This document shows, piece after piece, positions 21,361-37,160 of a DNA stretch of 37,160 nt. This DNA is from Clostridiales bacterium (GTDB taxonomy: Bacteria; Bacillota; Clostridia; Christensenellales; Aristaeellaceae). A model generated the notes under the pieces. That model saw only the letters and a list, made by a program, of their open reading frames with translations, searched no databases and was not told where the DNA came from. The stretch covers positions 1-37,160 of the forward strand of contig SVHD01000024.1 in NCBI GenBank assembly GCA_015056015.1, read 5' to 3'. The stretch's first letter is position 1. Every line of letters begins with the position of its first letter. A program made the position numbers and the translations under genes.

Positions 21361-22470
21361 TTACAGTTCCCGTTCGTATTGCCGGTACACGCGATACAGA
21401 TGCGTGCCCATTTTTTCCGTGTTATTGATGGATGCGGCGTTGGTTTCATCCACGGTGGATCCCTCCACCCATTGAATGCCCAGTTTCTTCGCCTCCAGAT
21501 ACGCCTCATAGAACATGGCGGTATTCACGCCCATATTCTGATATTCCGGCACCACGAATTGCATATTGCAGCGGGCGCCGTAAATCTTATTCTTTCCCAG
21601 CAGGAATTTCAGCCAGCCAAAGGGAAGAATCCGGCCCTTCATTTTTATCAGCAGCTGATTATAATTGGGGAAGGCCACCACCAGCCCGATGGGCCGATTG
21701 CCCGCATAGGCCATCATGGTCATTTCCGGGCGATAATAGCGGCGATAGGCGGAAAATACCTTGGCAATATCCTCGTAGGTGGGAATATTCAATTCCCATT
21801 CCGCCGGGAATGCCTCCCGAATCACCCGGGTCACATCCCCCAGCAGCCGCTGCTCATTTTCCTTGGTAAATTCCAGCTTCTGCACCCGGAATCCAAAGCG
21901 CCGCTTGGCCCGGGGCACGATTTCCTCCACCCGCTGCAGATCAAAGCCATCCATCCGCATGAAATAGGCAAAATGATCCCGATGCTTTTTGAAGCCGCAT
22001 TTTTCAAAATATTCCGCATAATAGGGCGGATTATAGGGATTGAAAATTACCGGCGGGCCATCAAAGCCCTGCACCAGCAGCCCCTTGCTGAAATCATCAA
22101 AATCAGCGGAAGTGGGGCCGATGACCATCTCCATCCCCTCTTCCTTCAGATAAGCGCAGGCGGCGTCCAGCGCCGTGCGGGCATAATCCGGGCGCTGCAT
22201 GCATTCAAACAGACCGATATAGCCGTATTTCTTCCCCAGCCGCTCATTCAGCCGGGTATCCGCCCCTGCCATCACCCGGGCAACGGGCTTATTCTCATCA
22301 TAAACCAGGAAAAATCGCCGGGGATCAGCCGTCTTTTCGCACAGCGATTTCAGCTGCTCGCCAATCAGCGGCGCCACCCAATTAGGATCGTTTTTATATA
22401 AAGCAAAGGGCAGCATCACAAAAGGACGCATGGCCGCGCGGGTCTGGGCCAGAATTTCCACCCGAATCAT
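21361..22470 (-). CDS. GNAT-like N-acetyltransferase family protein
   Basis: The 369-residue product resembles large two-lobed GNAT-like proteins of the YghO kind, whose substrates are unknown. Visible features are an N-terminal FALYKNDPNWVAPL block, GYIGLFECMQ, a central GPTSADFDDFSKGLLVQGFDGPP region (key: GPTS and GFD), a PPYYAEYFEKCGF stretch typical of an acetyl-CoA lobe end, and a final GVNTAMFYEAYLEAKKLG with a C-terminal NTEKMGTHLYRVYRQYE. The start MIRVEIL has AAGGTGG upstream; the frame is open 41 codons further without support. It is a single-gene unit with its own perfect promoter and terminator. Confidence 0.72.
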   Translation of the reverse strand: MIRVEILAQTRAAMRPFVMLPFALYKNDPNWVAPLIGEQLKSLCEKTADPRRFFLVYDENKPVARVMAGADTRLNERLGKKYGYIGLFECMQRPDYARTALDAACAYLKEEGMEMVIGPTSADFDDFSKGLLVQGFDGPPVIFNPYNPPYYAEYFEKCGFKKHRDHFAYFMRMDGFDLQRVEEIVPRAKRRFGFRVQKLEFTKENEQRLLGDVTRVIREAFPAEWELNIPTYEDIAKVFSAYRRYYRPEMTMMAYAGNRPIGLVVAFPNYNQLLIKMKGRILPFGWLKFLLGKNKIYGARCNMQFVVPEYQNMGVNTAMFYEAYLEAKKLGIQWVEGSTVDETNAASINNTEKMGTHLYRVYRQYEREL

Positions 22471-22509
22471 TTTCCCACCTTCTTTTCTGGATATTCTTTC
22501 TGTGAATTC

Positions 22510-22538
22510 ATTATAGCATCGGCCCCTGCATTTGTCAA
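22510..22538 (-). promoter_or_regulatory. Perfect-consensus sigma-A promoter of the GNAT-like gene
   Basis: TTGACA (22533-22538), 17-base spacer, TATAAT (22510-22515): all 12 positions match. Leader about 33 bases. It starts right after the terminator of the nucleotidase gene. Confidence 0.9.
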
Positions 22539-22552
22539 AGAATGAATGGCGC

Positions 22553-22583
22553 AAAAAAATGCCGCCCGTTTCCAGGCGGCATT
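22553..22583 (-). terminator. Intrinsic terminator of the nucleotidase gene
   Basis: AATGCCGCC and GGCGGCATT form nine perfect pairs around an 8-base loop, then TTTTT on the minus strand, about 30 bases after the stop codon. Confidence 0.9.
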
Positions 22584-22612
22584 TCCATTGCATTGCAATG
22601 ATTTGCTTTTTA

Positions 22613-24919
22613 TTATTCGGCCACGGTGTAAACCAGGGTAGCGCCCATGGATTCTTCCAGAGCGGTCAGGGTGCCATCCACAAAGGTCATGGCTTCTTCA
22701 ATGACCACCAGTTCAGCGCCGTTCTGGGTCCAGGTGCCAACCACATCTTCCTGACCGGACTGCTGCATGGTGCAGGTGCCGTCTTCATTGATGATCAGGG
22801 TGATGCTCAGGCCCATCATCGCGGGGTTGATAACCTTTTCGCCCTTGGTGATGGCGGACAGGGTCCAGGTGCCAACCACGTTGGGGGTTTCGGTTTCGGC
22901 AGCGGGTTCTTCAGCAACGGGGGCTTCGGGGATGATGATGATGCGTTCCACGGGATACATTTCCGCATATTCTTCGCCCACAACGCCGTTGAGGGTGCCC
23001 ACGATGTAATCGATCACAACCTGGTAGTCCAGCTTGATTTCGTCCAGCAGCAGGGGATCAGCCATGAACATGTTGGTGCCGTCGCCGCCGCTCTTGAGCA
23101 GGAAGTTATGGCTGGCGATGGTGTAATTCTTTTCCAGATCCAGGGGTTCGCCGTTGACGGTCACGTTCTTGACGCGGTATTCGCCGGTCACGCCGGTGAA
23201 GTTGCCCTTATCGTCGTTGGTGCAGGAAGAGGGGATGTAGCTGTGGATTTCGTAGGGCAGGCCGGCCACGTGCAGGAAGCCGCCGTTCTGATCAGGCACA
23301 TTGCGGGCAGTCCATTCCAGGGCGTCCAGGATGTGCTGGCCGGTGGTTTCCTTCATGCACAGGGAATTGCCGAAGGGATGGCAGGTCATGATCTGTTCCA
23401 GGGTGATATCGCCGGCAGGGATATCAGCGCGGATGCCGCCGCCGTTGACAACGGCAACGTCAGCACCGGTCTGATCCTTGTAAGCATCGGCCACCAGATG
23501 GCCCAGGTTGGTTTCGGTGTTGCGGATCACGCGAGCGCCGGTGGCGGGATCGTAGATGATCAGGGCAACGTCGGTCTTGGCAACCACTTCCGCCAGCTTT
23601 TCATTCAGGGCGGTGGTGGCATTTTCCAGGGCGGTGGCCATGGAAGCGTCATAGGTGAACAGGCCGGTTTCCAGCTTGCCATCAGCAGTAATCTTCAGAT
23701 AGCCGATGTTTTCCAGCTTGGTGCCGCAGGCGGCCATCAGCACGTCCTTGCCTTCCTTGTTCTTGATCACTTCGGCTTCCAGCACGCTGTGGCTGTGGCC
23801 ATCCAGCAGGGCGTCGATGCCGGTGGTGTTCAGGATCAGTTCGGAAGAGGTCCAGGGAGAGCATTCTTCTTCGATGCCCAGGTGAGCCATCACAACCACG
23901 TAGTTGGCGCCTTCAGCCTTGGCAGCGTCAACGGCGGTCTGCACGGCGGCATACAGGGCGGCGCCGGTATCATCTTCGGCGAAGCCGTAGACGTAATTGC
24001 CGTTTTCATCCTGGAAATAGGTGGGGGTGGAGGAGGTGAAGGTCTTGGGGGTGGTAACGCCCACGAAAGCGATCTTCATGCCTTCCACATCCTTGATGAT
24101 GTAGGGGGCAAAGACGGCTTCGCCGTTGTGGGTGAAGTTGGCGCTTACATAGGGGAATTCAGCCTTTTCGGCCAGGCCAAGGAAGATATCCATGCCATAG
24201 TCGAATTCATGGTTGCCCATGGTGGCCACGTCATAACCGGCAGCATTCATCAGATCGATGATGGCTTCGCCCTTGGTCATGGTGCCGATGGGTTCGCCCT
24301 GGATGGAGTCGCCGTTGTCCACCAGCAGCACATTGTAATCATGGGCCAGCTGGGCCTTGACCAGCGCCAGGCCTTCGTAGCCGAAGCCCTGATCGATGCC
24401 GCAGTGCACGTCGCTGGTGAAGAGAACGATGGTATCCTTCTTGCCTTCGTTAGCCTTGGCAGATTCCAGCGCAGCATTGACGGCGTCCAGTTCAGCCTGG
24501 ATGGCGGCAACGGCAGCGGCCTTATCGGCGGCGGCAGTTTCGGCAGCGGTCTTGGCAGCTTCTTTCGCTTCAGCCTTGGCAGCGGCAACGGCAGCTTCCA
24601 GATCGGCAGCAGCAGTTTCAGCAGCAGTCTTGGCGGCGGTGGCAGCGGCTTCTTCCGCTTCAGCCTTGGCGGCGGCTACGGCAGTTTCCTGGGCGGTAGC
24701 GGCTTCCGCGGCAGCGGCTTCAGCAGCAGTCTTGGCGGCGGCAGCAGCAGCTTCCGCATCAGCCTTGGCAGTTTCCAGATCGGCCTTGACAGCGGCGATA
24801 TCCGCGGTCAGGGTTTCATTCTGCTTCTGCAGGTCATTCTTCTGGCCATTGAAAACAACCGCGCAGGCCGCGGAGGCGATCAGGGCCAGCACCAGAATGA
24901 TGCTCAATACCTTTTTCAT
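22613..24919 (-). CDS. Surface 5'-nucleotidase/metallophosphatase with Ala-rich coiled coil
   Basis: This is predicted to dephosphorylate nucleotides outside the cell. The 768-residue product has an N-terminal membrane anchor or signal (KKVLSIILVLALIASAACAV), an alanine/glutamate/lysine-rich helical stretch (about 27-157), a calcineurin-like domain (about 160-400) with FTSDVHCG, VDNGDSIQG, GNHEFDYG, VVMAHLG and DGHSH, then the 5'-nucleotidase C-terminal domain with TNLGHLVADAY, NGGGIRADIPAG and LKSGGDGTNMF. A last domain (about 685-768) contains VVGTWTLSAITKG and a repeat VVGTWTQNGAELVV, like lipocalin-type tails. The ATG at 24919 has AGGAGG nine bases upstream. Confidence 0.9.
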   Translation of the reverse strand: MKKVLSIILVLALIASAACAVVFNGQKNDLQKQNETLTADIAAVKADLETAKADAEAAAAAAKTAAEAAAAEAATAQETAVAAAKAEAEEAAATAAKTAAETAAADLEAAVAAAKAEAKEAAKTAAETAAADKAAAVAAIQAELDAVNAALESAKANEGKKDTIVLFTSDVHCGIDQGFGYEGLALVKAQLAHDYNVLLVDNGDSIQGEPIGTMTKGEAIIDLMNAAGYDVATMGNHEFDYGMDIFLGLAEKAEFPYVSANFTHNGEAVFAPYIIKDVEGMKIAFVGVTTPKTFTSSTPTYFQDENGNYVYGFAEDDTGAALYAAVQTAVDAAKAEGANYVVVMAHLGIEEECSPWTSSELILNTTGIDALLDGHSHSVLEAEVIKNKEGKDVLMAACGTKLENIGYLKITADGKLETGLFTYDASMATALENATTALNEKLAEVVAKTDVALIIYDPATGARVIRNTETNLGHLVADAYKDQTGADVAVVNGGGIRADIPAGDITLEQIMTCHPFGNSLCMKETTGQHILDALEWTARNVPDQNGGFLHVAGLPYEIHSYIPSSCTNDDKGNFTGVTGEYRVKNVTVNGEPLDLEKNYTIASHNFLLKSGGDGTNMFMADPLLLDEIKLDYQVVIDYIVGTLNGVVGEEYAEMYPVERIIIIPEAPVAEEPAAETETPNVVGTWTLSAITKGEKVINPAMMGLSITLIINEDGTCTMQQSGQEDVVGTWTQNGAELVVIEEAMTFVDGTLTALEESMGATLVYTVAE
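24454..24800 (-). repeat. Low-complexity Ala-rich coding repeat
   Basis: Within the nucleotidase gene, units of the type AAKTAAETAAADLEAAVAAAKAEAKE recur imperfectly (no long exact run is shared). The DNA is a patchwork of GCA/GCG/GCC codons. It probably forms a long helix or stalk between membrane and enzyme; repeat number may vary between strains. Confidence 0.7.
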
Positions 24920-24934
24920 GGGTGTCACCCTCCT

Positions 24935-24973
24935 AAAAAAACTATAGCGGGCCTGTCATAATGCAGACCCGCT
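24935..24973 (-). terminator. Terminator-like hairpin at the 5' end of the nucleotidase transcript
   Basis: AGCGGG-T-CTG pairs with CAG-G-CCCGCT (nine pairs plus a T-G wobble, 8-base loop), then ATAG and TTTTTTT. It lies between the predicted -10 box and the ribosome binding site. It could end engB transcripts, attenuate the nucleotidase transcript or protect its 5' end. Confidence 0.6.
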
Positions 24974-24977
24974 GTTT

Positions 24978-25006
24978 ATTATACCAATTTTATCTAACAA
25001 ATGCAA
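24978..25006 (-). promoter_or_regulatory. Sigma-A promoter of the nucleotidase gene
   Basis: TTGCAT (25001-25006), 17-base spacer, TATAAT (24978-24983). The -35 lies just after the engB stop codon. Transcription should begin near 24971, inside the first arm of the hairpin at 24946-24973. Confidence 0.78.
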
Positions 25007-25011
25007 TCCCA

Positions 25012-25599
25012 TTAGCCCTCTTCTGATAAGGCTTTTTCCAGAATTTCCAGCAATTGATCCCGTCCATCCCCATTTTCGGAGGAAAAACAGACCACCTGCC
25101 AGGGCTGCACCTGCAATTGCCGGCAGATAGGGGCCAGATGCTTCATCCGGGCGCCCCGGGAAATCTTATCCGATTTGGTGGCCACCACCAGGAAGGGAAG
25201 ATTCATTCCCCGCAAAAAGGCATTCATCTGCAAATCATCCTGGGTGGGCTCATGCCGGATATCCACCAGATGCAAGGTCAGCTTCAATTGCTCGCTCTGC
25301 CGGAAATAATTCTCCATCATTTCACCCCAGCGGATTTTTTCCTGCTTATCCACCTTGGCAAATCCATAGCCGGGCAAATCCACCAGGTGAAAAGCATCAT
25401 TGAGCAAAAAAAGGTTGATCAGGCGGGTTTTGCCGGGGGTAGCGCTGGTTTTGGCCAGGGCCTTGCGCTGGCAAAGCTTATTAATCAGGGAAGATTTTCC
25501 AACGTTGCTCTTCCCCGCCACCGCAATCTGGGGCAAAAGGGGCTCAGGGGCGGTATAGGCCGCCATGCTGGTGATAAATTCGGCGGATTTGATTTCCAT
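25012..25599 (-). CDS. engB: Ribosome-biogenesis GTPase EngB (YsxC/YihA)
   Basis: EngB helps assemble the large ribosomal subunit. The 195-residue length is typical. G motifs are in order: G1 GKSNVGKSSLINK, G2 threonine in TSATPGKTRLIN, G3 VDLPGYGFAKV, G4 VATKSDKI and G5-like CFSSENGDG. It follows lonA by 24 bases, the conserved order of Bacillus and clostridia, and is probably cotranscribed. Confidence 0.95.
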   Translation of the reverse strand: MEIKSAEFITSMAAYTAPEPLLPQIAVAGKSNVGKSSLINKLCQRKALAKTSATPGKTRLINLFLLNDAFHLVDLPGYGFAKVDKQEKIRWGEMMENYFRQSEQLKLTLHLVDIRHEPTQDDLQMNAFLRGMNLPFLVVATKSDKISRGARMKHLAPICRQLQVQPWQVVCFSSENGDGRDQLLEILEKALSEEG

Positions 25600-25623
25600 G
25601 TTTCTGCTCGCTTTCGTAATCTC

Positions 25624-27969
25624 TTATGCGTCGGCCTTTTCAGGCTTCAGGGCGATGGTCAGCACATCAGCAATGCTTTCGCAGGGAACGATCCGGAACT
25701 GGGAAAGCACATGCGGGGGCACATCCTCCAGATCCTTCTGGTTTTCCTTGGGGATCAGGATGGTTTTGATGCCCGCGCGATAGGCTGCCAGCAGCTTTTC
25801 CTTCACCCCGCCGATGGGCAATACCCGGCCCCGCAGGGTAATTTCCCCGGTCATGGCCACATCCTGATAGACGGGCCGACCGGTAAGCGCGGAAACCAGG
25901 GCGGTTGCCATGGTGACGCCGGCAGAGGGGCCGTCCTTGGGCACGGCGCCTTCGGGCACATGAATATGAATATCCAGATTCTTGTGGAATTCCTTATCCA
26001 GCTTGAATTCTCCGCTGTGGGCGCGCACCCAGGAAAGGGCGGCCCGGGCGGATTCCTTCATCACATCGCCCAATTGGCCGGTCAATTGCACCTGGCCGGT
26101 GCCTTCCATGGTGGCGCATTCCACCGCCAGGGTTTCGCCGCCAACGGTGGTATAAGCAAGGCCGTTGACCACGCCCACCTTGGGCGCCTTTTCCGGCATA
26201 TCCCGAAGATAACGCGCCGCGCCCAGATATTTTTGCACTACCTTGGGATTGACGCTGATCTGATCCTTTTCTTCCTCCAGCATTTCAACGGCGGCCTTGC
26301 GCACCACCCGGGCGATTGTCCGGGACAGGGTGCGCACCCCGGCTTCACGGGTGTAGCCTTCAATGATACTCTTCATGGCAGGATCGGAAATCTTCACAGA
26401 TTTTTTGGGCAGGCCATGCTCTTCCGTCTGCTTGGGCAGCAGATGCTTTTTCGCAATATGCAGCTTTTCTTCTTCCGTATAGCTGGGCACCTCGATAATT
26501 TCCATACGATCCAGCAGGGGGGCAGGAATCGTATCCATGGAATTGGCGGTGGTGATAAACATCACCCGGGAAAGATCGAAGGGCAATTCCAGATAATGAT
26601 CCCGGAAGGCAAAATTCTGCTCCGCATCCAGCACTTCCAGCATGGCGGAGGCAGGATCGCCCCGGAAATCATGGCTCATTTTATCGATTTCGTCAAACAG
26701 GAATACGGGGTTCATGGTGCCCGCCTGCTTGATGCCGGCAATGATCCGGCCGGGGATCGCGCCCACATAGGTACGCCGGTGACCCCGGATTTCCGCTTCA
26801 TCCCGGACGCCGCCCAGACTCATCTGCACGAATTTCCGGCCAACCGCCCGGGCAATGCCCTTGACGATGCTGGTTTTGCCTACGCCGGGAGGGCCAACGA
26901 AGCAAAGAATCGGGCCTTTCATGCTACCGTCCTGGGTATTGATTTCCTTCATCCGGCGAACGGCCAGGTATTCAATCACCCGTTCCTTCACCTTATCCAT
27001 GGCATAATGATCTTCATCCAGCACCCGGCGGGCGCGCTTGAGATCCAGATTATCGGTGGTGAATTTGCCCCAGGGCAGATCCAGAATCCATTCCACATAG
27101 GTGCGGCTCACCCCGATTTCGGGAGTGCCGGGGGCCATGCGGGAAAGACGATCCAGTTCCCGGGAAGCCTTTTCTCTGGCTTCGTCATTGAGGGGCGTTT
27201 CGGCAAGGCGCTTGCGCAGATCCTCCACGTCGGTTGCGTCCTTATCCCCCAGTTCTTCCTGAATGGCTTTGATCTGCTCACGCAGATAATAATCCTTCTG
27301 GTTTTTGTCGATCTGCTTCTTTAAGCGGCTCTGCACCTGTTTTTCGATGGCTGCCAGTTCGGTTTCCCGCACCAGAATACCGCACAGGGTTTCCAGCCGC
27401 TTTTCCACATCGATTTCTTCCAGCACAGCCTGGCGATCCTCCACCCGGGTGAGGACATTGGCGGCAATAATATCCGCCAGCTGATCCGGGCGCTCCACAT
27501 CGCCCACAGAACGCAGGGTTTCCCCGGAAATCCGCATGGACGCCCGGGCGTATTCATCAAATAATTCATGGGTGGTGCGCACCAGCGCTTCAATTTCCGG
27601 CGTTTCGGGCACATCCTGAGGGGGGACGATCACATCCGCTTCCCAATAAGGCTCTTCCTGGGTAACGGCATGCAAAAGCGCCCGGTGCTGGCCTTCCACC
27701 AGCACCCGGATGGAATCGCCCGGAAGATTGAGCACCTGCTTGATCAGCGCCACGGTACCCACCTGGCAAAGATCGGAAACCGCCGGTTCCTCAACATCCC
27801 CATCCTTCTGGGCCACTAAAAATACCAATTGTTCCTCCACCATGGCCTGCTCCAGCGCCGCCACGCTCCGGGGACGACCTACATCAAAATGCAGCACCAT
27901 ATGAGGAAATACCATCAATCCCCGCAGGGGGATCAGCGGCAAATGCATCATTTCTTTCTTTTTCGGCAT
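25624..27969 (-). CDS. lon: ATP-dependent protease LonA
   Basis: Lon degrades damaged and regulatory proteins in the cytoplasm as a hexamer. The 781-residue product has the N-terminal LAN domain (PLIPLRGLMVFPHMVLHFDV), a helical linker, the AAA+ module with Walker A GPPGVGKTSIVKG and Walker B VFLFDEIDKM, the arginine-finger region, and the C-terminal protease domain. That domain has the catalytic serine in KDGPSAGVTMA and the catalytic lysine in GGVKEKLLAAYRAG. The ATG has AGGAG five bases upstream. A separate promoter lies between lonB and lonA. Confidence 0.97.
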   Translation of the reverse strand: MPKKKEMMHLPLIPLRGLMVFPHMVLHFDVGRPRSVAALEQAMVEEQLVFLVAQKDGDVEEPAVSDLCQVGTVALIKQVLNLPGDSIRVLVEGQHRALLHAVTQEEPYWEADVIVPPQDVPETPEIEALVRTTHELFDEYARASMRISGETLRSVGDVERPDQLADIIAANVLTRVEDRQAVLEEIDVEKRLETLCGILVRETELAAIEKQVQSRLKKQIDKNQKDYYLREQIKAIQEELGDKDATDVEDLRKRLAETPLNDEAREKASRELDRLSRMAPGTPEIGVSRTYVEWILDLPWGKFTTDNLDLKRARRVLDEDHYAMDKVKERVIEYLAVRRMKEINTQDGSMKGPILCFVGPPGVGKTSIVKGIARAVGRKFVQMSLGGVRDEAEIRGHRRTYVGAIPGRIIAGIKQAGTMNPVFLFDEIDKMSHDFRGDPASAMLEVLDAEQNFAFRDHYLELPFDLSRVMFITTANSMDTIPAPLLDRMEIIEVPSYTEEEKLHIAKKHLLPKQTEEHGLPKKSVKISDPAMKSIIEGYTREAGVRTLSRTIARVVRKAAVEMLEEEKDQISVNPKVVQKYLGAARYLRDMPEKAPKVGVVNGLAYTTVGGETLAVECATMEGTGQVQLTGQLGDVMKESARAALSWVRAHSGEFKLDKEFHKNLDIHIHVPEGAVPKDGPSAGVTMATALVSALTGRPVYQDVAMTGEITLRGRVLPIGGVKEKLLAAYRAGIKTILIPKENQKDLEDVPPHVLSQFRIVPCESIADVLTIALKPEKADA

Positions 27970-28023
27970 AATAACTCCTGATTTCCATTGGGTTCTCCCG
28001 GCAAAATTTACCGGTGAATATTT

Positions 28024-28052
28024 ATTATATCGGAAAGCGCAAAGAAATGCAA
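28024..28052 (-). promoter_or_regulatory. Sigma-A promoter of lonA-engB
   Basis: TTGCAT (28047-28052), 17-base spacer, TATAAT (28024-28029), eight bases after the lonB stop. Leader about 50 bases. No CIRCE or CtsR-type box was seen next to it. Confidence 0.8.
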
Positions 28053-28059
28053 CCCGGGA

Positions 28060-29733
28060 TTATACGCCGTTGCGGGATGCGGCAGCCGCCAGGGTTGCCT
28101 GGGAAATTCCCGTGTTTTCGTGCTGCTCTTCCCTGATTTCGGCTGGCAAAAGCATCAGATGCATGGCCTGCTCCAAAGAATCTACGGGAATGACCCGAAT
28201 GCCCATTTCTTCAAATCGTTCCAGATAATTTTCTCTTGGAATCAGCACCCGGGTAAGCCCCGCTCTTTTTGCCGCTTCCACCTTCGCCGGCACGCCGCCC
28301 ACCGGCCTTACCTTGCCCTGCACCCCGATTTCCCCCGTAACGGCGCTGCTGCCATCCACAGGCCTTCCGCTCAGGGCGCTGATTGCAACCAGCGCCATGG
28401 CCACCCCGGCAGAGGGCCCGTCCACCGGCACGCCGCCGGGAAAATTGATATGAAGATCGGTCTTTTCATCCGCAAGGCCCAGGCTGCGAAGCAGGGTCAT
28501 CACATTTTCTGCCGATGCATGGGCCGTGGATTTTCTGCGCATGGTATGGCCGCTGCCGCCCATTTCCTCTTCTTCCACAATCCCCGTTATCCGGATGCGC
28601 CCCGTTCCCTGCCGGGCAACGGCCTCAATTTCCATCACTGCGCCCTGATGGCTTCCGTGCACAGCCAGGCCATGAATGGCCCCCACCCGGTTTTCCTGGG
28701 AGGCCATGCCTTCAGGCCTTTCCGCGTAATGCCCGGATTCTGCCACCCATTCCATATCTTTATTGGTAATTTCCCGCCGTCCGTCCAATTGGGCCACGCC
28801 GGAGGCCATCTGCACCATATTCACCGCATCCCGGCCGCATGCGGCATATTTCCCGGCAATTTTTGCCGTTTCTTTTTCCATGGCAAATCCGGCGCGGTTT
28901 GCCGCTTCATGGGCGATGCGGGTGATTTCCTCCGGTTCCAGGGCTCGGAAGAAAATTTCCATACATCGGGAGCGCAGGGCCGGGGATATCTCCTCCGGAC
29001 TGCGGGTGGTGGCCCCCACCAGCCGAAAATCCGCCGGCATCCCCTGCTTAAAAATTTCATGAATATACCTGGGGGTGCCGGTATCATCCGCATTATAGTA
29101 AGCGGATTCAAATTGCACCTTGCGGTCTTCCAGTACCTTGAGCAGTTTATTCATCTGTACCGGATGCAATTCCCCAATTTCATCCAGAAATAATACGCCC
29201 CCGTGGGCCCGGCTTACCGCCCCCATTTTCGGCTGGGGAACGCCCTGAATACCCAGGGGGCCCGCGCCCTGATAAATGGGGTCATGCACGCTGCCAATCA
29301 GCGGATCCGCAATGGCCCGCTCATCAAATCGAACACAGGTGGCGTCCATTTCGATAAAGGGAGCATTTGGCTTAAAGGGCGTTCCCTGGCTTTTTTTCGC
29401 CGCCTCCAGCACCAGCCGGGCAGCACAGGTCTTCCCCACGCCGGGCGGGCCGTAAATAATCACATGCTGGGGATTTTCCCCGCAGAGAATGGCCATCAGG
29501 GATTTGATCCCCTCCTCCTGCCCGATGATATCAGAAAATGCCTGGGGGCGCACATGCTCCGCCAATGGTTCCGAAAGAGAAATTCCACGCATTCTGCGCA
29601 AATTTTCCATTTCCTTGGTGCTTTCCCGTCTGGCAACGGGTTCCCTTCGCTTCTGATTGCGAAGCTGCGTGTAAAAAAATACCCCTGTAATGATGGTCAC
29701 CGTCAATTGAATGAGCAAGAGAAACAAGCTCAA
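28060..29733 (-). CDS. lonB: Membrane-anchored ATP-dependent protease LonB
   Basis: LonB is a Lon-type protease; in Bacillus subtilis it is made in the forespore. The 557-residue product has an N-terminal membrane helix (LFLLLIQLTVTIITGVFFY), no large LAN domain, an AAA+ module with Walker A YGPPGVGKTCAARLV and Walker B GVLFLDEIGELHP, sensor regions (RLVGATTRSPEEI) and a Lon protease domain with serine in VDGPSAGVAMAL and lysine in GGVPAKVEAAKRAG. The start is TTG, supported by AAAGGGGGG seven bases upstream. It precedes lonA and engB in the conserved order. Confidence 0.95.
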   Translation of the reverse strand: MSLFLLLIQLTVTIITGVFFYTQLRNQKRREPVARRESTKEMENLRRMRGISLSEPLAEHVRPQAFSDIIGQEEGIKSLMAILCGENPQHVIIYGPPGVGKTCAARLVLEAAKKSQGTPFKPNAPFIEMDATCVRFDERAIADPLIGSVHDPIYQGAGPLGIQGVPQPKMGAVSRAHGGVLFLDEIGELHPVQMNKLLKVLEDRKVQFESAYYNADDTGTPRYIHEIFKQGMPADFRLVGATTRSPEEISPALRSRCMEIFFRALEPEEITRIAHEAANRAGFAMEKETAKIAGKYAACGRDAVNMVQMASGVAQLDGRREITNKDMEWVAESGHYAERPEGMASQENRVGAIHGLAVHGSHQGAVMEIEAVARQGTGRIRITGIVEEEEMGGSGHTMRRKSTAHASAENVMTLLRSLGLADEKTDLHINFPGGVPVDGPSAGVAMALVAISALSGRPVDGSSAVTGEIGVQGKVRPVGGVPAKVEAAKRAGLTRVLIPRENYLERFEEMGIRVIPVDSLEQAMHLMLLPAEIREEQHENTGISQATLAAAASRNGV

Positions 29734-29761
29734 AAAAATCCCCCCTTTTCTATCCGTTCGT

Positions 29762-29791
29762 TAGGATGTGAAAAGGAGGGAAAGAACATGC
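29762..29791 (-). promoter_or_regulatory. Candidate forespore-sigma (SigF/SigG) promoter of lonB
   Basis: GCATG (29787-29791), 18-base spacer, CATCCTA (29762-29768). This fits the GHATR and CATNNTA boxes of SigG-type promoters. No sigma-A pair is evident in the same gap. The short motifs allow chance matches. Confidence 0.4.
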
Positions 29792-29801
29792 AATCATGTT
29801 C
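29784..29801. promoter_or_regulatory. Perfect palindrome upstream of lonB
   Basis: GAACATG, CAAT, CATGTTC on the plus strand: 7-base perfect arms, overlapping the candidate -35 box and lying 32 bases after the ldcA stop. It could be an operator or a weak terminator for the alr-ldcA operon; the following pyrimidine tract is not a clean U run. Confidence 0.45.
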
Positions 29802-29832
29802 CAGACAAATTCATCCTGAAATGCGATTTTTT

Positions 29833-30762
29833 TCAGTCGACCGCTCTTTCCATAATGCGTACGGTTTGGGCGTCGGCGTCCATTTCGCACATCACGCCCA
29901 GGGGAATGGTCAGCTTGGGGCTGCAATGCCCGGCGCGGATACCCTGCAAAACGGGCTTATCCTTGGGAAATCCGATCTCGGCCAGAATTTCATCCAGGGT
30001 CTGGCCAAAATCCGGATATTCCACGGTGCAATCGGTAAATTCCCCCAGCAGGATCCCCGCGCACTGATCAAAGGCGCCGGCGTGCTTTAAGTTCACCAGC
30101 ATTTCATCCACCCGGTAGGTATGCTCCCCAATATCTTCCAGAAAGAGAATCTTTCCCGCAAAATCCGGAGCATAGGGCGTGCCCAGGCTGTGGGCAATGA
30201 GGGTAAGATTGCCGCCCACAATTTCGCCTTTGGCAATGCCGCCCTGCAGGGTTTTGCGTTCAAAGCCGGGGGGATTGATAATTTCATATCCTTCCCTGCT
30301 CTGAAGCGCCTGCATCAAAGAAGCAAAGGAAATTGCCTGGTTTTCATCATCAATGGAAATATCCCCGTTGGGGCCATGGAAAGTTACCAATCGCCCGTAG
30401 CGATTGAAAGCAGCATGCAGGGCGGTAATATCGCTGAAGCCCAGAAAGATTTTGGGATGCCTGCGGATCATATCATAATCCAGCATGGGCAAAAGCCGGG
30501 CAGAACCATAGCCGCCGCGGATGCAGAAAATGGCGTCCACCGAATCATCGGCAAAAAAGCGATTGATATCCCGGGCACGGATTTCATCCGTTCCTGCCAG
30601 ATGCCCATGCCGGGATACGCAGCTTTCCCCTACCACGATTTTATAGCCCAGCCTTTCCCAGAAGGCCTTGGTTCTGGGCAGAATGATATCATTATTCCGT
30701 GCGCCGGAAGGGGCAATCAGGCCAATGGTCATTCCTTCTTTTAAGGCGCGGGGACGATTCAT
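29833..30762 (-). CDS. ldcA: S66-family LD-carboxypeptidase (LdcA/MccF)
   Basis: S66 peptidases cut the mDAP-D-Ala bond of murein tetrapeptides during wall recycling, or inactivate microcin C-like peptides. The 309-residue product has the nucleophile elbow FLGFSDITALH (S110), the acidic residue in LFLEDIGEHTYR (E209) and the histidine in IRAGHCSPKLTIPLG (H279), a complete Ser-Glu-His set. The N-terminal GLIAPSGA and GGYGSARLLP are typical. There is no signal peptide, so it is cytoplasmic. The ATG has GGAGG seven bases upstream and overlaps the alr stop as ATGA, implying coupled translation. Confidence 0.92.
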   Translation of the reverse strand: MNRPRALKEGMTIGLIAPSGARNNDIILPRTKAFWERLGYKIVVGESCVSRHGHLAGTDEIRARDINRFFADDSVDAIFCIRGGYGSARLLPMLDYDMIRRHPKIFLGFSDITALHAAFNRYGRLVTFHGPNGDISIDDENQAISFASLMQALQSREGYEIINPPGFERKTLQGGIAKGEIVGGNLTLIAHSLGTPYAPDFAGKILFLEDIGEHTYRVDEMLVNLKHAGAFDQCAGILLGEFTDCTVEYPDFGQTLDEILAEIGFPKDKPVLQGIRAGHCSPKLTIPLGVMCEMDADAQTVRIMERAVD

Positions 30763-31898
30763 AAATCTTCCTCCATTTCGGCAGAAACGGCCACGGGCTT
30801 TCCGCCGCGCAGATAGACCCTGGGCACCCGCCGGCCAATCATGCCCAGGCATTCATTGCGGTTCATATCGCCCCAGGCGGCAAATTCCCGCAAATCAATA
30901 TCCCCGCCAAGCAGGGTGACAATATCCCCCTCTTCCGCTTCCGGAATATCAGTGATATCAATCATCATCTGATCCATGCAGACCCTGCCCAGCACCGGCG
31001 CGCGCTTGCCATGCAGGGAAACGAAGCCCTTCTGGGAAAGCAGCCGGGGATAGCCGTCGATATAACCCACCGCCAGGGTGGCAACCCGGGTATCCCGGGC
31101 AAGGGGCGTATCATCATAGCCCACGCCATCGCCCTTGGGCGCCCAGCCGATGCGGGTGATCTTTGCCTTGAACTGCATCACATCTTTGCCTTCGGAAAAG
31201 CGTTCCCAAGCCGGGGGCACATTGCCATACAAAAATGCGCCCACCCGTACAGCGTCCATCTGCCAGTCCGGGAATCGGGTCAGGCCGATGGAATCCACCA
31301 GATGATGCATTCTGGCATGCAGGCCGCCCGCCTCAATTTCTTCCGCTATTTTTACAAACAAGGCATGCTGTTCCCTGCTCTGTTCCCGGCTGCGCAGGGC
31401 CAGATGGCTGTAAATGCCCTCAAAGGAAAGCATGGGCAAATCCTTGATTGCAAGGGCGGAAGCGGCGTCCGTAAAGCCCAGGCGATGCAAGCCCGTATCC
31501 AGCTTTACCTGCACCAGCGCCTCTTTTCCTGTTTGCTGCGCCGCCAGAGAAGCCCGCCTGGCGTCCGCCAGCGTGCCCACCGTCAGGGAAATTCCCTGCC
31601 CAATCAGGGAGGGCAGATAGCTTTCCTCCGCCGGGCTCAGCAAAAGAATGTGGGCGTCCTTTGCGGCGCGCCTTGCGGTCAGCGCTTCTTCCGGCGCAGC
31701 CACGGCAAACCAGCTCGCTCCATTTGCATTCAGCGTTTCCACCGTACGGAAAAGGCCAAGCCCGTAGGCATTGGCCTTCACCACACAAATGAATTCCGTA
31801 TTCTTTTCGCAAAGGGAACGCGCCAGATGGTAATTATGCAGCAGGGCATCCTCATCCACCTCAGCCCATGCACGGGCAATTGCGCGATCAAGCTTCAT
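30759..31898 (-). CDS. alr: Alanine racemase
   Basis: Alanine racemase is a PLP enzyme interconverting L- and D-alanine. The 379-residue product has the PLP lysine K41 in CVVKANAYGLG, HHLVDSIGLTRFPD in the barrel, and the C-terminal domain with the second catalytic tyrosine region GVGYDDTP and the substrate-binding GRVCMDQMMIDIT. The ATG at 31898 has GGGAGG upstream and lies two bases after the stop of the preceding ATPase gene; the frame is open further up without support. Its place after a peptide importer suggests it handles D-alanine from imported peptides, though it may also be the biosynthetic enzyme. Confidence 0.95.
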   Translation of the reverse strand: MKLDRAIARAWAEVDEDALLHNYHLARSLCEKNTEFICVVKANAYGLGLFRTVETLNANGASWFAVAAPEEALTARRAAKDAHILLLSPAEESYLPSLIGQGISLTVGTLADARRASLAAQQTGKEALVQVKLDTGLHRLGFTDAASALAIKDLPMLSFEGIYSHLALRSREQSREQHALFVKIAEEIEAGGLHARMHHLVDSIGLTRFPDWQMDAVRVGAFLYGNVPPAWERFSEGKDVMQFKAKITRIGWAPKGDGVGYDDTPLARDTRVATLAVGYIDGYPRLLSQKGFVSLHGKRAPVLGRVCMDQMMIDITDIPEAEEGDIVTLLGGDIDLREFAAWGDMNRNECLGMIGRRVPRVYLRGGKPVAVSAEMEEDL

Positions 31899-31900
31899 TT

Positions 31901-32842
31901 TTATTCCTCCCGGATTCTTTCCCGATAAGCTTCCAGTTCCTTCTGATTTCCCAGCACGAAATGGCCTTCTTCGATTTCGCACCATTCAGGCTTATCCACG
32001 CTGTAATCATGCACGCTTTCGTCATAAATCATGGGCGGGCCATCCTGGCGGTGATCAGGCGAGGGCATGGGCACGGCGGAAAGCAGCGCCTGGGTATAGG
32101 GATGCAGCGGATGCCGGAAGAGGGTTTCTGTATCCGCCAATTCCACCAGCAGGCCCTTATGAATCACCGCAATGCGATCGCAGATGAAGCGCATCACGGA
32201 AAGATCATGGGAAATGAAGAGATAGGTAAGCCCTCTCTCCCGCTGCAGTTCCGCCAGCAGATTCAGCACCTGGGCACGGATGGAAACATCCAGTGCGGAG
32301 ATGGGTTCATCCGCCACAATGAATTCAGGCTGCATGATCAGCGCCCGGGCAATGCCGATACGCTGACGCTGGCCGCCGGAAAACTCATGGGGAAAACGGC
32401 TGGAAAATTCAGGCAGCAGGCCCACGTCGGAAAGGGCGGCATCCACCCGTTCCTTACGCTGTTCAGCCGTCAGATGCTTTTCAACATTATACAGGCCTTC
32501 GGATACAATGTAGTCCACCTTGGCCCGTTCATTCAGGGAAGCCATGGGATCCTGGAAAATCATCTGGATTTTCCTGGTCACTTCCTGATCCAGCTCTTTG
32601 CTGATTTTTCCGTTGATCTTCTCGCCCTTGAAAATCACTTCGCCGCCCGCCGTTTCATAAATGCGGATGATGGCGCGGCCAATGGTAGTTTTCCCCGAAC
32701 CGGATTCGCCAACCAGGCCAAAGGTTTCCCCCTTGAAAATATCAAAGCTTACGCCGCGAACGGCATAGAAGGGCTTGCGTTTGGGGCCAAAGGCCACCTT
32801 CAAATCCCGCACAGAAAGAAGCGGTTCTCTCATCTCACTCAT
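31901..32842 (-). CDS. Peptide ABC transporter ATPase, DppF/OppF type
   Basis: This is one of two ATPases powering the dipeptide/oligopeptide importer. The 313-residue product has Walker [16 protein letters not shown]-loop [12 protein letters not shown], signature [16 protein letters not shown], Walker [13 protein letters not shown] and the switch histidine in FISHDLSVM. The C-terminal oligopeptide-transporter extension ([12 protein letters not shown]) is present. The ATG overlaps the preceding ATPase stop by four bases. Confidence 0.95.
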
Positions 32843-33876
32843 ACGATTTTATCCCCTTTCTGCAGCCTGCGCAGCACCGCCGGCGGCTCCACCTTGGGGG
32901 CCCGGGGATCCAGCAGCCAGGTACGTGCTTTATGGGTAGGCGTCACTTCAAAGAAGGGCGGCCTTTCTTCAAAATCAATTTTCAATGCGTGAGGATTGCG
33001 GGGAGCAAAGGCGTCGCCCTTGATTTCCAGATACAGATTAGGCGGCGTACCCTTGATGGAGAATAGATCCTCCCCCTTCACGCCCAGCTGGGGCAGCGAG
33101 GAAAGCAGCGCCCAGGTATAGGGATGGCAGGCTTCGTAGAATACTTCCCGGCTGGTGCCGATTTCGATGATATCGCCGGCATACATTACCGCGACCCTAT
33201 CAGCCACATTGGCCACAACCCCCAGGTCATGGGTGATATACACGGTGGTCAAATCATATTTCCGTACCAGATCACGGATCAGATGCAGAATCTGGGCCTG
33301 GATGGTAACGTCCAGCGCGGTGGTCGGCTCGTCACAGATCAGAATCTTGGGCTTGCAGGCGATAGCAATGGCGATAACCACGCGCTGGCGCATGCCGCCG
33401 GAAAATTCATGGGGATACTGCTTGGCACGGCGTTCGGGATCGGTGATGCCCACGTCCACCAGGGTTTCAATCATCCGCTTATGGGCCTCGGCGCCCACCA
33501 GATTCTGATGCAGCTTCAGCGCTTCTTCAATCTGGGCGCCAATGGTTTTGAGCGGGTTCAGGCTGGTCATGGGATCCTGCAGCACCATGGCGATTTCCTT
33601 GCCGCGGATGGTCAGCCATTCCTTTTCCGTCTTATACTGGGCCAGGTCTTTTCCGTTGTAGAAAATGCTGCCGCTGTCAATCCAGCCGTTGGTATCCATC
33701 AGGCCCATGAAGGTCTTGGTCAATACCGATTTACCAGAGCCGGATTCGCCGACGATGGCCAGGGTTTCGCCCCTGTACAGATCCAGAGAAACATCCCGGA
33801 TGGCATGCAGCACCTTTCCGCGCAGGGAGAATTTCACATTCAGGTTCTGAACCGAAAGCACAGGCGTTTTTTCCAT
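32839..33876 (-). CDS. Peptide ABC transporter ATPase, DppD/OppD type
   Basis: This is the partner ATPase of the importer. The 345-residue product has Walker [19 protein letters not shown]-loop [12 protein letters not shown], signature [16 protein letters not shown], Walker [13 protein letters not shown] and the H-loop YITHDLGVV. The C-terminal OppD-type extension includes [12 protein letters not shown]. The cysteine-rich iron-sulfur site found in some DppD proteins is not visible. It lies 15 bases after the DppC-like gene and overlaps the next by four. Confidence 0.95.
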
Positions 33877-33891
33877 GAATGCTTCTCCTCC

Positions 33892-35253
33892 TTACAGATG
33901 ATTCTTGGGATCCGCCGCATCGGCAAAGGCATTACCAACGATATAGAAAGAAATGGTGATGATGGAAAGCACGATGGTGGGGAACAGCAGCTGATAACTG
34001 GAACCGCTGCTAAGCAATTTTCTGCCCACGTTAATCAGGTTACCCAGAGAGGGAATGTTGATGGGCAGACCCAGACCAATATAGGTAATGAATACTTCAC
34101 TGCCGATAGCGCCGGGCACAGAAAGGGCCATGCGCAGGGTAATAACCGATACCAGATAAGGAAGCAAATTGCGGGTAATGATCCGGAAGGTACCGGTACC
34201 CAAGCAGCGGGAAGCCAGATTGTAGTCCCGGTCGCGGATGATTACGATCTGGTTGCGGACAAATCGCGCCATGCCTACCCAGCCGGTCGCGCTCATGGCC
34301 AGAATCAGGGTGGAAATGCCAGGCCGGAGCACATAGGAAACCAGAATCAATACGATGGTGGTGGGGATATTATCAATGACGTTATATACTTCCGTCAGCA
34401 GCCGGTCAAGAGAACGGACATAGCCCCAGAGCACGCCGATGAGAATACCGATGATTGCCTGGCAGAAGGCCACCACAATACCGATCAGCAGGGAGGTACG
34501 GGTGCCGGACCAAACCATGGCCCACAAATCCTGGCCCGCATTATTGGTACCAAAGAGGAAGGGGCGCACATCGGGCAGAAGGCGCAATTCCGCTTCCTTG
34601 ATGGCAATCGCCGTGCCATCCGCTTGCATTTCAATGCTTTCCTTGAGCACAAAAAGCTCATCGCCCTTGTAGGTCAATTCAGCAGGCGTGGTATGCAGGG
34701 AAACATTGAAATTGGATTTGGCCTTATAGGGCGTGTTTTCAAAGTCTTCAGGCAGTTTCAGCTTGGTAGTAAAGTCATTCTTCACATAGCCGACCGTGCC
34801 TTTGTAATCCACCTTGCAGAAATCCGCGCCATATTCCAGCACAGTAAATTCGTTCCGCTTGGGAATAGTTTCAATTACATTGCTGACTGCCGCCCATTTA
34901 TCATCTTCCCAGGGGGTCACGGTCAGCACGACGCCCGCTTCCGCCTTGGCCTGCACATTCGTCAGGCCGGGCCGCACATTCATCATCTGCATACCGGTGA
35001 TGGGATGATTGATAACCAGCTTGGCTTTATACTGGCCGGGCAGCAGCGGCTGAATGCAGGTAAAAACCAGCAGGATAGCCAGCAAAATCAACAAGCCCAT
35101 GGCCACCCGGTTTTTCAGGAAGCAGCGGAAGGTGCTGCCCCAATAGGAATAGTTGGAATAACCGGCCTTTTCTGCCGCCGCGCTATCGTAGGCAGCAAAT
35201 TCAAACATGGAATTTTCCAAAGGCTTGGACACATGATCCTTGATGCCTTTCAT
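33892..35253 (-). CDS. Peptide ABC transporter permease, DppC type, with inserted SH3b-like domain
   Basis: This is the second membrane subunit of the importer. At 453 residues it is about 150 longer than usual. The first membrane helix (51-69) is followed by an extracytoplasmic stretch of about 160 residues before the family motif FLFGTNNAGQDLWAMVWSGT (233-252) and the remaining helices. Within the insert, residues 105-163 read like a bacterial SH3 domain: VIETIPKRNEFTVLEYG, FCKVDYKGTVGYVKNDF. The EAA-type loop ASRCLGTGTFRIITRNLLP and C-terminal GNAFADAADPKNHL are normal. The ATG shares one base with the DppB stop (TGATG). Confidence 0.93.
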   Translation of the reverse strand: MKGIKDHVSKPLENSMFEFAAYDSAAAEKAGYSNYSYWGSTFRCFLKNRVAMGLLILLAILLVFTCIQPLLPGQYKAKLVINHPITGMQMMNVRPGLTNVQAKAEAGVVLTVTPWEDDKWAAVSNVIETIPKRNEFTVLEYGADFCKVDYKGTVGYVKNDFTTKLKLPEDFENTPYKAKSNFNVSLHTTPAELTYKGDELFVLKESIEMQADGTAIAIKEAELRLLPDVRPFLFGTNNAGQDLWAMVWSGTRTSLLIGIVVAFCQAIIGILIGVLWGYVRSLDRLLTEVYNVIDNIPTTIVLILVSYVLRPGISTLILAMSATGWVGMARFVRNQIVIIRDRDYNLASRCLGTGTFRIITRNLLPYLVSVITLRMALSVPGAIGSEVFITYIGLGLPINIPSLGNLINVGRKLLSSGSSYQLLFPTIVLSIITISFYIVGNAFADAADPKNHL

Positions 35254-36194
35254 CAGCGCGCACCCTCCTTCTTCGTCAGGCTGATCCGCGGATCGATCAC
35301 GGCCATCAGCAAATCGCCCAGCAGCATGCCCACAATACCGATGCAGGAATAAATCATTACGATAGCCTGCACCATGGGGTTATCCTGCTTGGTGATAACG
35401 TCAACCAGAAGGCCGCCCATGCCGGGAATGGAATAGAGGGATTCAACATAAATGGAACCACCCACCGTATAGAGCAGGGAGGTAGGGATATACTGAATCA
35501 TGGGAACAAATGCATTGCGGAATACATGGCGCATGGTAATTTTCTTGGTATCCACGCCCTTGGCCCGGGCAAGGCGGACATAATCCTTATTCAGTTCATC
35601 CACCATATACCGGCGCAGCCACATGGCGTAATAGGCGATATTGCCCAGGGACAAAGAGAAAATCGGCAGAATCCAGGTGACCCAGTTATCTCGTTCAAAA
35701 AGCATGCTTACGCCCAATAAGGTGGAACCATAAGACTGAATATAGATATAATATACGGCCGAAGGAACGGCGTTAATCAGCACGATAAAGAGCGTGCCGA
35801 ATTTATCCCAAAATTTATTTTTGCTCCGGGCCATTGCAGCGCCCAGAGGAATACCCAATACCAGAGAGACAGCCATAGCTATCAAGCCCAGGGTCAGGGA
35901 GACCGGGGCCTTATTGGCGACAATTTCAATGATCGGCACATCCTTGCTATAGCGGGCGGATACGCCGAGATCGCCTTTCAGCAAATTCAGAAAGAAATCT
36001 TTGAGCTGCACAAGCATGGGGTCATTCAACCCCAGCTTATCCAGCGTAGCTTCAATGACCGCAGGGGTCAATTTATCAATGTTATCGAAATAACCATCAA
36101 TGGGCATTTGGCGAACCATAACAAAAACCAAGGACAGGATAATCGCCAGCGTAAAAATGGATTGCCCGATACGCTTCAGTAAATACTTAGCCAA
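35253..36194 (-). CDS. Peptide ABC transporter permease, DppB type
   Basis: This is the first membrane subunit of the importer. The 313-residue protein has the usual start (KYLLKRIGQSIFTLAIILSL), about six membrane segments, the FGDLG-equivalent LLKGDLGVSARYSKDVP and the EAA loop VRLARAKGVDTKKITMRHVF. I chose the TTG at 36194, which has AAAGGATG upstream and yields the family N terminus; an in-frame ATG seven codons earlier (36215) abuts a hairpin and has no ribosome binding site. It follows the binding-protein gene after about 90 bases. Confidence 0.92.
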   Translation of the reverse strand: MAKYLLKRIGQSIFTLAIILSLVFVMVRQMPIDGYFDNIDKLTPAVIEATLDKLGLNDPMLVQLKDFFLNLLKGDLGVSARYSKDVPIIEIVANKAPVSLTLGLIAMAVSLVLGIPLGAAMARSKNKFWDKFGTLFIVLINAVPSAVYYIYIQSYGSTLLGVSMLFERDNWVTWILPIFSLSLGNIAYYAMWLRRYMVDELNKDYVRLARAKGVDTKKITMRHVFRNAFVPMIQYIPTSLLYTVGGSIYVESLYSIPGMGGLLVDVITKQDNPMVQAIVMIYSCIGIVGMLLGDLLMAVIDPRISLTKKEGAR

Positions 36195-36219
36195 TTTGTC
36201 AACATCCTTTGACATTCGT

Positions 36220-36251
36220 CTGCGGCAGGCCGGAAAACCGGCCTGCCGCAG
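36220..36251 (-). promoter_or_regulatory. Long perfect hairpin between dppA-like and dppB-like genes
   Basis: CTGCGGCAGGCCGG and CCGGCCTGCCGCAG form 14 perfect GC-rich pairs around a 4-base loop. No U tract follows on the minus strand. It ends only a few bases before the dppB-like start region. Same place and shape as the hairpin at 19367-19398. Confidence 0.75.
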
Positions 36252-36283
36252 CGCAATTGTGGTTACCAGGGCTTCAACAGCAA

Positions 36284-37160
36284 TTATTCAGCGGTCAAAG
36301 CAGCCTTGGCTTCCATATAGGCGTCATAAGCATCGTAGTATTCGTCGGTGTCCATGTAGTCATCCAGCTTCTTCTGGCCCTTATAGCGTTCCTGAGTCAT
36401 GCTGTCAGCAGCGATGGGAGCAGAGAAGGGATCCAGCAGGGAAGCGGTGTAGCCGCCGCTGGCATAACCAATGGGCATCACGAAGCCATGGTTGATCAGG
36501 AAGGCTTCCGCCTTGGCAAAGGCAGCATAGCGGGCAGCGGTGTCATCCACGATGGCCTTGGCAGCATCCACCAGCGCATAGTATTCCTCGATCAGCGCGG
36601 TATCGGTGCAGGCTTCGCCCATGCTGTTGTAGTGGTAATCGTCGGTGCGGAGGAAGGGATCGGTGTAAGTTTCCGGGTCAGTATAGTCGGGACCCCAGTT
36701 GCAATTCTGGATGGCATAATCGCCGGTGCGGCGAGCACCCAGATAATTCTGCGCAGGACCAGCGACCAGCACCACATCGATATAATCGGTGCCCAGCACG
36801 CTTTCCAGCTGCTGTTCCACGAGCTGCGCTTCTTCAGCGGAGTTGTTGCCAGAAGCGCTGGGATGGTAAGTGTCCAGAATGATGATGGGGAATTTGCAGC
36901 CAGCAGCGGTCAGTTCCTTGATGGCGGCTTCCTTATAGGCCAGCGCAGCATCCACATTCATGGTGTCAGCACCCTTGGCGGTGATGGCAGCCAGATCGCC
37001 CATGTTCACATAGTCCAGACCATTGGCATCCACGAAGGCAGGGGGAGTCAGGGTATTATACAGCAGGGCTTCGGGGTTGTCAGGATCGATCAGGGTCTTA
37101 ATCTTGATGCGGTTGAAGGCATTGATGATGGAAAGACGGAAGTTTTCGTTGTTGACAGCG
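36284..37160 (-). CDS. Peptide-binding protein, SBP family 5 (DppA/OppA), C-terminal part
   Basis: This is the extracellular substrate receptor of the importer. The 292 residues present cover the C-terminal half: FRLSIINAFNRIKIKTLI (the region where family 5 proteins have RQAF..AID), LAYKEAAIKELTAAGCKFPI, VEQQLESVLGTDYIDV and the closing lobe. The upstream part, including signal peptide and lipobox, is outside the window. The frame is open to the window edge at 37160. It heads the operon; being a family 5 receptor, its ligand may be a peptide, nickel chelate or muropeptide. Confidence 0.9.
   Translation of the reverse strand, partial: AVNNENFRLSIINAFNRIKIKTLIDPDNPEALLYNTLTPPAFVDANGLDYVNMGDLAAITAKGADTMNVDAALAYKEAAIKELTAAGCKFPIIILDTYHPSASGNNSAEEAQLVEQQLESVLGTDYIDVVLVAGPAQNYLGARRTGDYAIQNCNWGPDYTDPETYTDPFLRTDDYHYNSMGEACTDTALIEEYYALVDAAKAIVDDTAARYAAFAKAEAFLINHGFVMPIGYASGGYTASLLDPFSAPIAADSMTQERYKGQKKLDDYMDTDEYYDAYDAYMEAKAALTAE

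Follow-up and report, generated by a model that had tools for sequence, protein, structure and literature searches.

The permease gene and its operon

The window, by which we mean the whole 37,160-nucleotide stretch of DNA that was analysed, carries on its minus strand an operon for a peptide importer whose OppC-type permease has a long insert. A binding protein, OppB, OppD and OppF are all encoded alongside this permease (Pfam, NCBIfam), together with an alanine racemase and an LD-carboxypeptidase. The features are as follows.

36284-37159, minus strand: solute-binding protein gene, C-terminal part only, running off the window end (SBP_bac_5)
35253-36215, minus strand: OppB-type permease gene (open reading frame, Pfam and NCBIfam)
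33892-35253, minus strand: OppC-type permease gene with insert, 453 aa (open reading frame; OppC_N, BPD_transp_1 and SH3_3; Foldseek matches to OppC/DppC structures)
35044-35109, minus strand: TM1 of the permease, aa 49-70 (helix 49-70 in the model; OppC_N at aa 36-73)
34558-35037, minus strand: whole insert, predicted to be outer, aa 73-232, 160 residues (loop lengths; model pLDDT 91, pTM 0.81)
34762-34959, minus strand: SH3b-like segment of the insert, aa 99-164 (SH3_3, 31.1 bits; nearest chains by profile 2kt8, 2kyb and 2kq8)
34558-34761, minus strand: C-terminal beta extension of the insert, aa 165-232 (modelled strands; without Pfam match)
33895-34557, minus strand: permease core, aa 233-453 (Pfam and model)
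32839-33876, minus strand: OppD-type ATPase gene (Pfam and NCBIfam)
31901-32842, minus strand: OppF-type ATPase gene (Pfam and NCBIfam)
30759-31985, minus strand: alanine racemase gene, alr (TIGR00492, 243.9 bits, cut-off 168)
29833-30852, minus strand: LD-carboxypeptidase gene of the LdcA/S66 family, ldcA (Pfam Peptidase_S66 and S66C)

The true starts of alr and ldcA are likely codon 30 and codon 31 of their respective open reading frames. In the permease, OppC_N scores 30.2 bits at aa 36-73 (cut-off 23.9) and BPD_transp_1 scores 86.9 bits at aa 269-450 (cut-off 26.4). None of the NCBIfam equivalog cut-offs for OppC or DppC is reached, the best match being MMSYN1_0166 with 314 bits against a cut-off of 370. 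Since the scores lie nearer the OppC models (MMSYN1_0166, 314 bits; Opp3C, 226) than DppC (79), OppC-type is the better name; a preliminary description of this DNA had the length of 453 residues right and called the protein DppC-type.

Downstream of ldcA lie two genes for Lon-type proteases (28060-29733 and 25624-27969) and, beyond them, a small GTPase gene (25012-25599); the same order is retained after alr in a related locus, L075. The draft genome of the window holds two alr matches. For ldcA it has, apart from the operon copy, one further match, split into two pieces of a single frame on a different contig. At one contig end stands the N-terminal part of a similar binding protein (L251, G000:C78:11-841), possibly the missing start of the binding protein gene cut by the window. 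Another OppC paralogue in the same genome (L002:1012-2184) has a distinct TM1-TM2 loop of 101 residues, in which no Pfam domain was matched.

A predicted domain fold with an SH3b-like core

The loop between TM1 and TM2 spans 160 residues (aa 73-232) in the window permease, as against 26-30 residues in 38 insert-free relatives, which gives about 133 extra residues. The preliminary description had thus placed the insert correctly between the two helices, while its size of 110-120 residues was too small. In a scan of the whole permease, the Pfam family SH3_3 matches aa 124-161 with an E-value of 7.3e-6 and 26.5 bits, just below the cut-off of 27. The score rises above this cut-off when the insert is scanned alone (aa 73-232, 29 bits) or when aa 99-164 are taken as a separate segment (31.1 bits), and no Pfam family was matched by aa 165-232 alone. 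Among 44 homologous inserts, 39 match SH3_3 and 19 match SH3_4 (E <= 0.01), so the SH3_3 match is not due to chance. These results bear out the SH3b-type domain first proposed at 34765-34941 (aa 105-163).

A profile built from the 44 inserts was compared with all PDB chain sequences, and the top matches were the bacterial SH3b domains 2kt8 (E 1.9e-5), 2kyb (6.5e-5) and 2kq8 (7.1e-5), followed, within the best 60 of 73 matches, by weaker bacterial and eukaryotic SH3 domains. The best of these sequence matches leave the first SH3b strand uncovered, since they begin near aa 122. Elsewhere in the genome, a 1222-residue open frame (G000:C3:27874-28557, L261-L263) shows several weak matches to the insert profile over the SH3b part and is a possible source of such domains.

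The full permease, modelled with AlphaFold2 from a 61-sequence alignment, has a mean pLDDT of 82, and its ten-residue blocks across the insert lie at 80-91, with one at 70. By Foldseek this model matches OppC/DppC structures (best E 2.5e-12; nearest 8j5q_C, 8z21_B and 8wd9_C). Modelled alone (AlphaFold2, 44 sequences), the insert reaches pLDDT 91 and pTM 0.81 and is predicted to form one compact all-beta unit, larger than a single SH3b domain, with thirteen strands at aa 100-224 and structure to about aa 224. In the model of the full permease, the C-terminal extension contains strands at 176-180, 184-187, 200-203, 207-209, 214-217 and 221-224. The whole insert model has no Foldseek match at E <= 0.001 in PDB or BFVD. 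Two of the best 50 of 697 PDB matches bear SH3 titles, namely 1tuc, a circular permutant of the spectrin SH3 domain (probability 0.94, E 1.2, TM-score by target 0.67, 57 columns, 3.1 A), and 2kxd (probability 0.75, E 1.1). We read the model as an SH3b core within a larger beta unit. Taking sequence and model together, the insert is most likely a folded extracytoplasmic domain with an SH3b core.

The match to 1tuc prompted a test for circular permutation by Pfam scans of five segments in native order and five re-ordered ones. The native and re-ordered scores were 31.0 and 31.2, 30.8 and 29.7, 23.5 and 23.5, 37.0 and 33.1, and 28.9 and 28.2 bits; in two of the five re-ordered segments the match reached further toward the profile start (position 5 instead of 13), with a score no higher. 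An internal repeat of the two halves of the insert was considered and is unsupported (hhalign probability 0.2, eight sequences per half).

One reading of such a domain, put forward in the preliminary description, is that it keeps the transporter at the wall by binding peptidoglycan. The nearest solved relatives of the insert include SH3b domains of wall hydrolases, and alr and ldcA in the operon suit this idea. We nevertheless consider it unlikely: the SH3b segment forms part of a larger beta unit without a confident PDB match, no ligand site was identified in the insert, and the co-variation with OppB described below says nothing of wall contact. Docking to the wall found no positive support beyond the SH3b label itself, and the further suggestion that the domain hands over wall peptides is likewise unsupported.

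Membrane side and comparison with known systems

The permease core and the five-gene operon resemble those of the OppBCDF and DppBCDF importers with solved structures from E. coli and M. tuberculosis. However, the five matched OppC/DppC chains have 287-302 residues and no space for a folded domain as large as this, compared with 453 residues in the window permease. The TM1-TM2 regions of E. coli DppBC lie in the periplasm, where a scoop motif of DppB binds DppA and seals the cavity (PMC12136057). By homology to solved OppC/DppC structures, the insert, lying in the TM1-TM2 loop of OppC, is probably outside the membrane, in agreement with the location first suggested.

A folded extracytoplasmic domain in the permease of a type I importer is also found in the maltose transporter, whose MalF P2 may serve as a works-like comparison for the docking of a binding protein. 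MalF P2 sits in another loop and has another fold than the OppC insert.

In B. subtilis, dppB-E adjoin ykfA-D, which include the LD-carboxypeptidase gene ykfA (PMC2954226). The dpp-ykf locus and the window operon thus both place peptide transporter genes beside an LD-carboxypeptidase gene; they differ in that the window has alr in place of the epimerase and NlpC/P60 genes, neither of which was found among twelve scanned window proteins (21361 to 37159). The same source links an SH3b domain to the handling of wall peptides, since SH3b1 of YkfC shapes a pocket for the free N-terminal L-Ala (PMC2954226). This domain lies within an enzyme bearing an NlpC/P60 domain, whereas the OppC insert lies within a permease.

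The YkfC precedent keeps a substrate-handling role for the insert in view, in which the domain would share in substrate choice as part of a stem-peptide site near the entry. The predicted placement of the insert by the entry and the alr linkage would fit such a role. But the YkfC site needs its NlpC/P60 partner domain, which the permease does not have. A conserved Tyr in the GYV motif occurs in SH3b domains generally and is therefore no proof of this role, and specificity in type I importers is usually set by the binding protein. We regard a share in substrate choice as quite unlikely.

Distribution among relatives

The full-length insert form was found in 17 of 29 genomes in a survey of the genus. 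In the family survey, a permease match at E <= 1e-75 was obtained in 87 of 200 genomes, at 96 places; 57 of these permeases have the insert and 38 do not (one, the broken G215, was omitted), counts from which more distant insert-free permeases are left out because they fall below the threshold. The insert is accordingly not shared by all permeases of the lineage, the point that the preliminary description had set for testing. Loop lengths are 152-191 residues in the 57 insert permeases and 26-30 in the 38 others, which share 56-77% core identity with the window permease. The insert profile matched 40 of 120 genomes of the family, 39 of them across the whole insert. Three loci (L085, L087 and L117) each have two adjacent opp operons, one with the insert and one without, which make a natural pair of paralogues; some of the genes run off contig ends.

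With a single-sequence query, a sample of 396 genomes of the order gave five insert permeases besides that of the window, all from the same bacterial family, as well as two partial SH3-type matches within that family. The class sample (391 genomes) returned the window's own insert and no other, and the phylum sample (398 genomes) yielded the genome of the window plus a single partial match, located in a frame of 320 residues. The whole insert was not found outside the family in these samples, which overlap and hold few near kin, so that rare cases may be missed. The named relatives are almost all metagenome-assembled genomes labelled Clostridia, Clostridiales, Christensenellaceae, Oscillospiraceae or similar, and the sites, where stated, are rumen and gut.

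The insert is mostly the mark of a single clade. A tree of the permease core requires three changes for it, though one may be enough, and nine for alr. The insert permease of L225 (49% identity, loop of 152 residues) clusters with insert-free permeases. Three insert-free permeases (L165, L166 and L167) branch from an open fork at the base of the insert clade, and loss of the insert is therefore possible.

alr, ldcA and other neighbours

The commonest gene order at insert loci is binding protein, OppB, OppC, OppD, OppF and alr. In the family survey, an operon was counted as evaluable if alr was seen or if at least 1200 bases followed the last opp gene, which left 10 insert and 9 insert-free operons unjudged. 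On this basis alr is present in 30 of 47 insert operons and 1 of 29 insert-free ones; by genus, a hand tally gives 12 of 18 against 1 of 12. Among the named loci, a set that overlaps the family survey, alr occurs in 39 of 60 evaluable insert operons. The association has one independent contrast on well-supported branches and three on all branches, and for this reason it cannot be called significant.

At seven of the 57 insert loci of the family survey (L074, L076, L079, L080, L081, L084 and L100), OppD and OppF are absent nearby and alr follows OppC immediately, so the ATPases would have to come from elsewhere, if the importer works; at four further insert loci OppD was seen without OppF. The other 17 of the 47 evaluable insert operons are without alr. 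Downstream of such operons lie a transglutaminase-like protein (L183 and L197), a polysaccharide-deacetylase-like protein (L211 and L213) and, once each, asparaginase, spore-permease-like and PNPOx-like proteins; no single substitute for alr was seen in the 17 operons inspected by eye or in the seven proteins of five loci that were scanned.

The LD-carboxypeptidase gene in the window operon is a feature that fits a muropeptide-recycling transporter. Of 73 named insert loci, 10 have ldcA nearby, a count unfiltered for contig ends. The gene also adjoins the insert-free operons L134, L165 and L166; among the three loci at the base of the insert clade two operons have it, and the contig of the third ends too early to tell. 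ldcA therefore does not track the insert and was rejected as a mark of insert operons. The alr-ldcA context first described is borne out in the window operon. Across relatives, the link to alr is strong among insert operons, with very few independent events behind it.

Selection and co-variation

Over 818 overlapping pairs with core dS < 1.2, the median dN/dS is 0.45 for the insert and 0.17 for the core, rough values because many pairs are near saturation. The insert is maintained (median below 1), and it evolves faster than the core.

These data bear on a further possibility, namely that the insert is a lineage-specific elaboration of the loop, of use for stability or assembly and without a separate role, co-inherited with the alr linkage from one ancestor. 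The few tree changes of the insert (three, perhaps one), the one to three contrasts for alr, the faster evolution of the insert and its possible loss at the base of the clade are all compatible with this. On the other hand, a length held at 152-191 residues in 57 permeases and a median dN/dS below 1 speak against passive elaboration, which we judge unlikely.

Distances between inserts follow those between OppB proteins beyond what the OppC core explains (partial r 0.48, p 0.001, n 52). For OppB residues 34-105, its putative outer part, the value is 0.43 (p 0.001, n 52), falling to 0.38 after the rest of OppB is removed and standing at 0.39 after the OppC N-terminus is removed as well. For residues 106-320 it is 0.32, or 0.24 once the outer part is removed. 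The insert gives 0.17 with OppD (p 0.045) and does not track OppF (0.06) or Alr (0.10). As a control, the OppC N-terminus with TM1 was compared with OppB: the outer part of OppB gives 0.145 (p 0.056) and its remainder 0.35 (p 0.001), which shows that correlations of this kind also occur where there is no outer contact. The values for the rest of OppB, for OppD and for the control mean that shared ancestry or rate has been only partly removed.

With the C-terminal part of the binding protein the partial r is 0.06 (p 0.21, n 50). With the full-length protein it is 0.27 (p 0.004, n 29), which drops to 0.09 (p 0.20) once OppB is removed; the outer part of OppB itself gives 0.26 with the full-length binding protein. 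The co-variation points weakly to the outer loop of OppB as the partner of the insert, and it is suggestive, though not proof of contact, of an outer-face network of insert, OppB and binding protein.

Binding proteins and the lipid anchor

By two stricter patterns, a lipobox was found in 0 of 30 binding proteins from insert operons and 0 of 22 from insert-free operons. With a looser, Prosite-like pattern there were 4 matches among the 30 and 3 among the 22, and two of those four fall outside the signal region; a Gram-positive pattern gave none. By eye, most of the operon binding proteins have a type I signal peptide, and in 5 of 22 insert-free operons the binding protein seems to carry an uncleaved N-terminal membrane anchor. 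Lgt is encoded in the window's genome, so the lipoprotein pathway exists there, and one (L249) of six other binding-protein frames of the genome fits the looser pattern. Judged by these patterns, the operon binding protein seems to be without a lipid anchor. The missing anchor was rejected as an explanation specific to the insert, because the same is seen in insert-free operons and in most of the genome's other binding proteins.

Proposed role of the insert

The reading that we prefer, with a probability of about 0.4, is that the insert is an outer-face docking or gating module of an importer for D-Ala-containing wall peptides, where it would lie beside the outer loop of OppB and a binding protein that is apparently not lipidated. 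In one bacterial family, the TM1-TM2 loop of OppC would have gained an SH3b-cored domain. This domain would neighbour the outer TM1-TM2 region of OppB (the corresponding region of E. coli DppB reaches into the binding protein) and may help to position or retain a binding protein that seemingly has no lipid anchor. The importer would take up D-Ala-containing wall peptides, a cargo suggested by the gene context of alr and ldcA; D-Ala could then be released, by the LD-carboxypeptidase in operons that have one, for racemisation by the linked Alr.

A bolder form of this docking model is speculative, and we think it improbable. Here the insert and the outer loop of OppB would together make a receiving site of the wall-peptide importer that positions the binding protein or a released stem peptide, and an SH3b fold, possibly with permuted strand order, would form part of the entrance of an ABC importer.

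Significance

Among the titles and opening lines of abstracts listed by literature searches, which cover part of the field, we found no description of an SH3b domain in an ABC permease, and nothing on OppC or Christensenellales with alanine racemase. The parts are known; no OppC-type permease with an SH3b-cored domain in its TM1-TM2 loop came up in these searches. It is poorly established in Gram-positive-type bacteria which transporters import free wall peptides; for B. subtilis, a 2010 paper speaks of an unidentified permease (PMC2954226). A conserved operon that joins a peptide importer to alr, and sometimes to ldcA, is a candidate for such an importer, and the insert offers a removable part for asking how a binding protein free of an anchor would be held at its permease.
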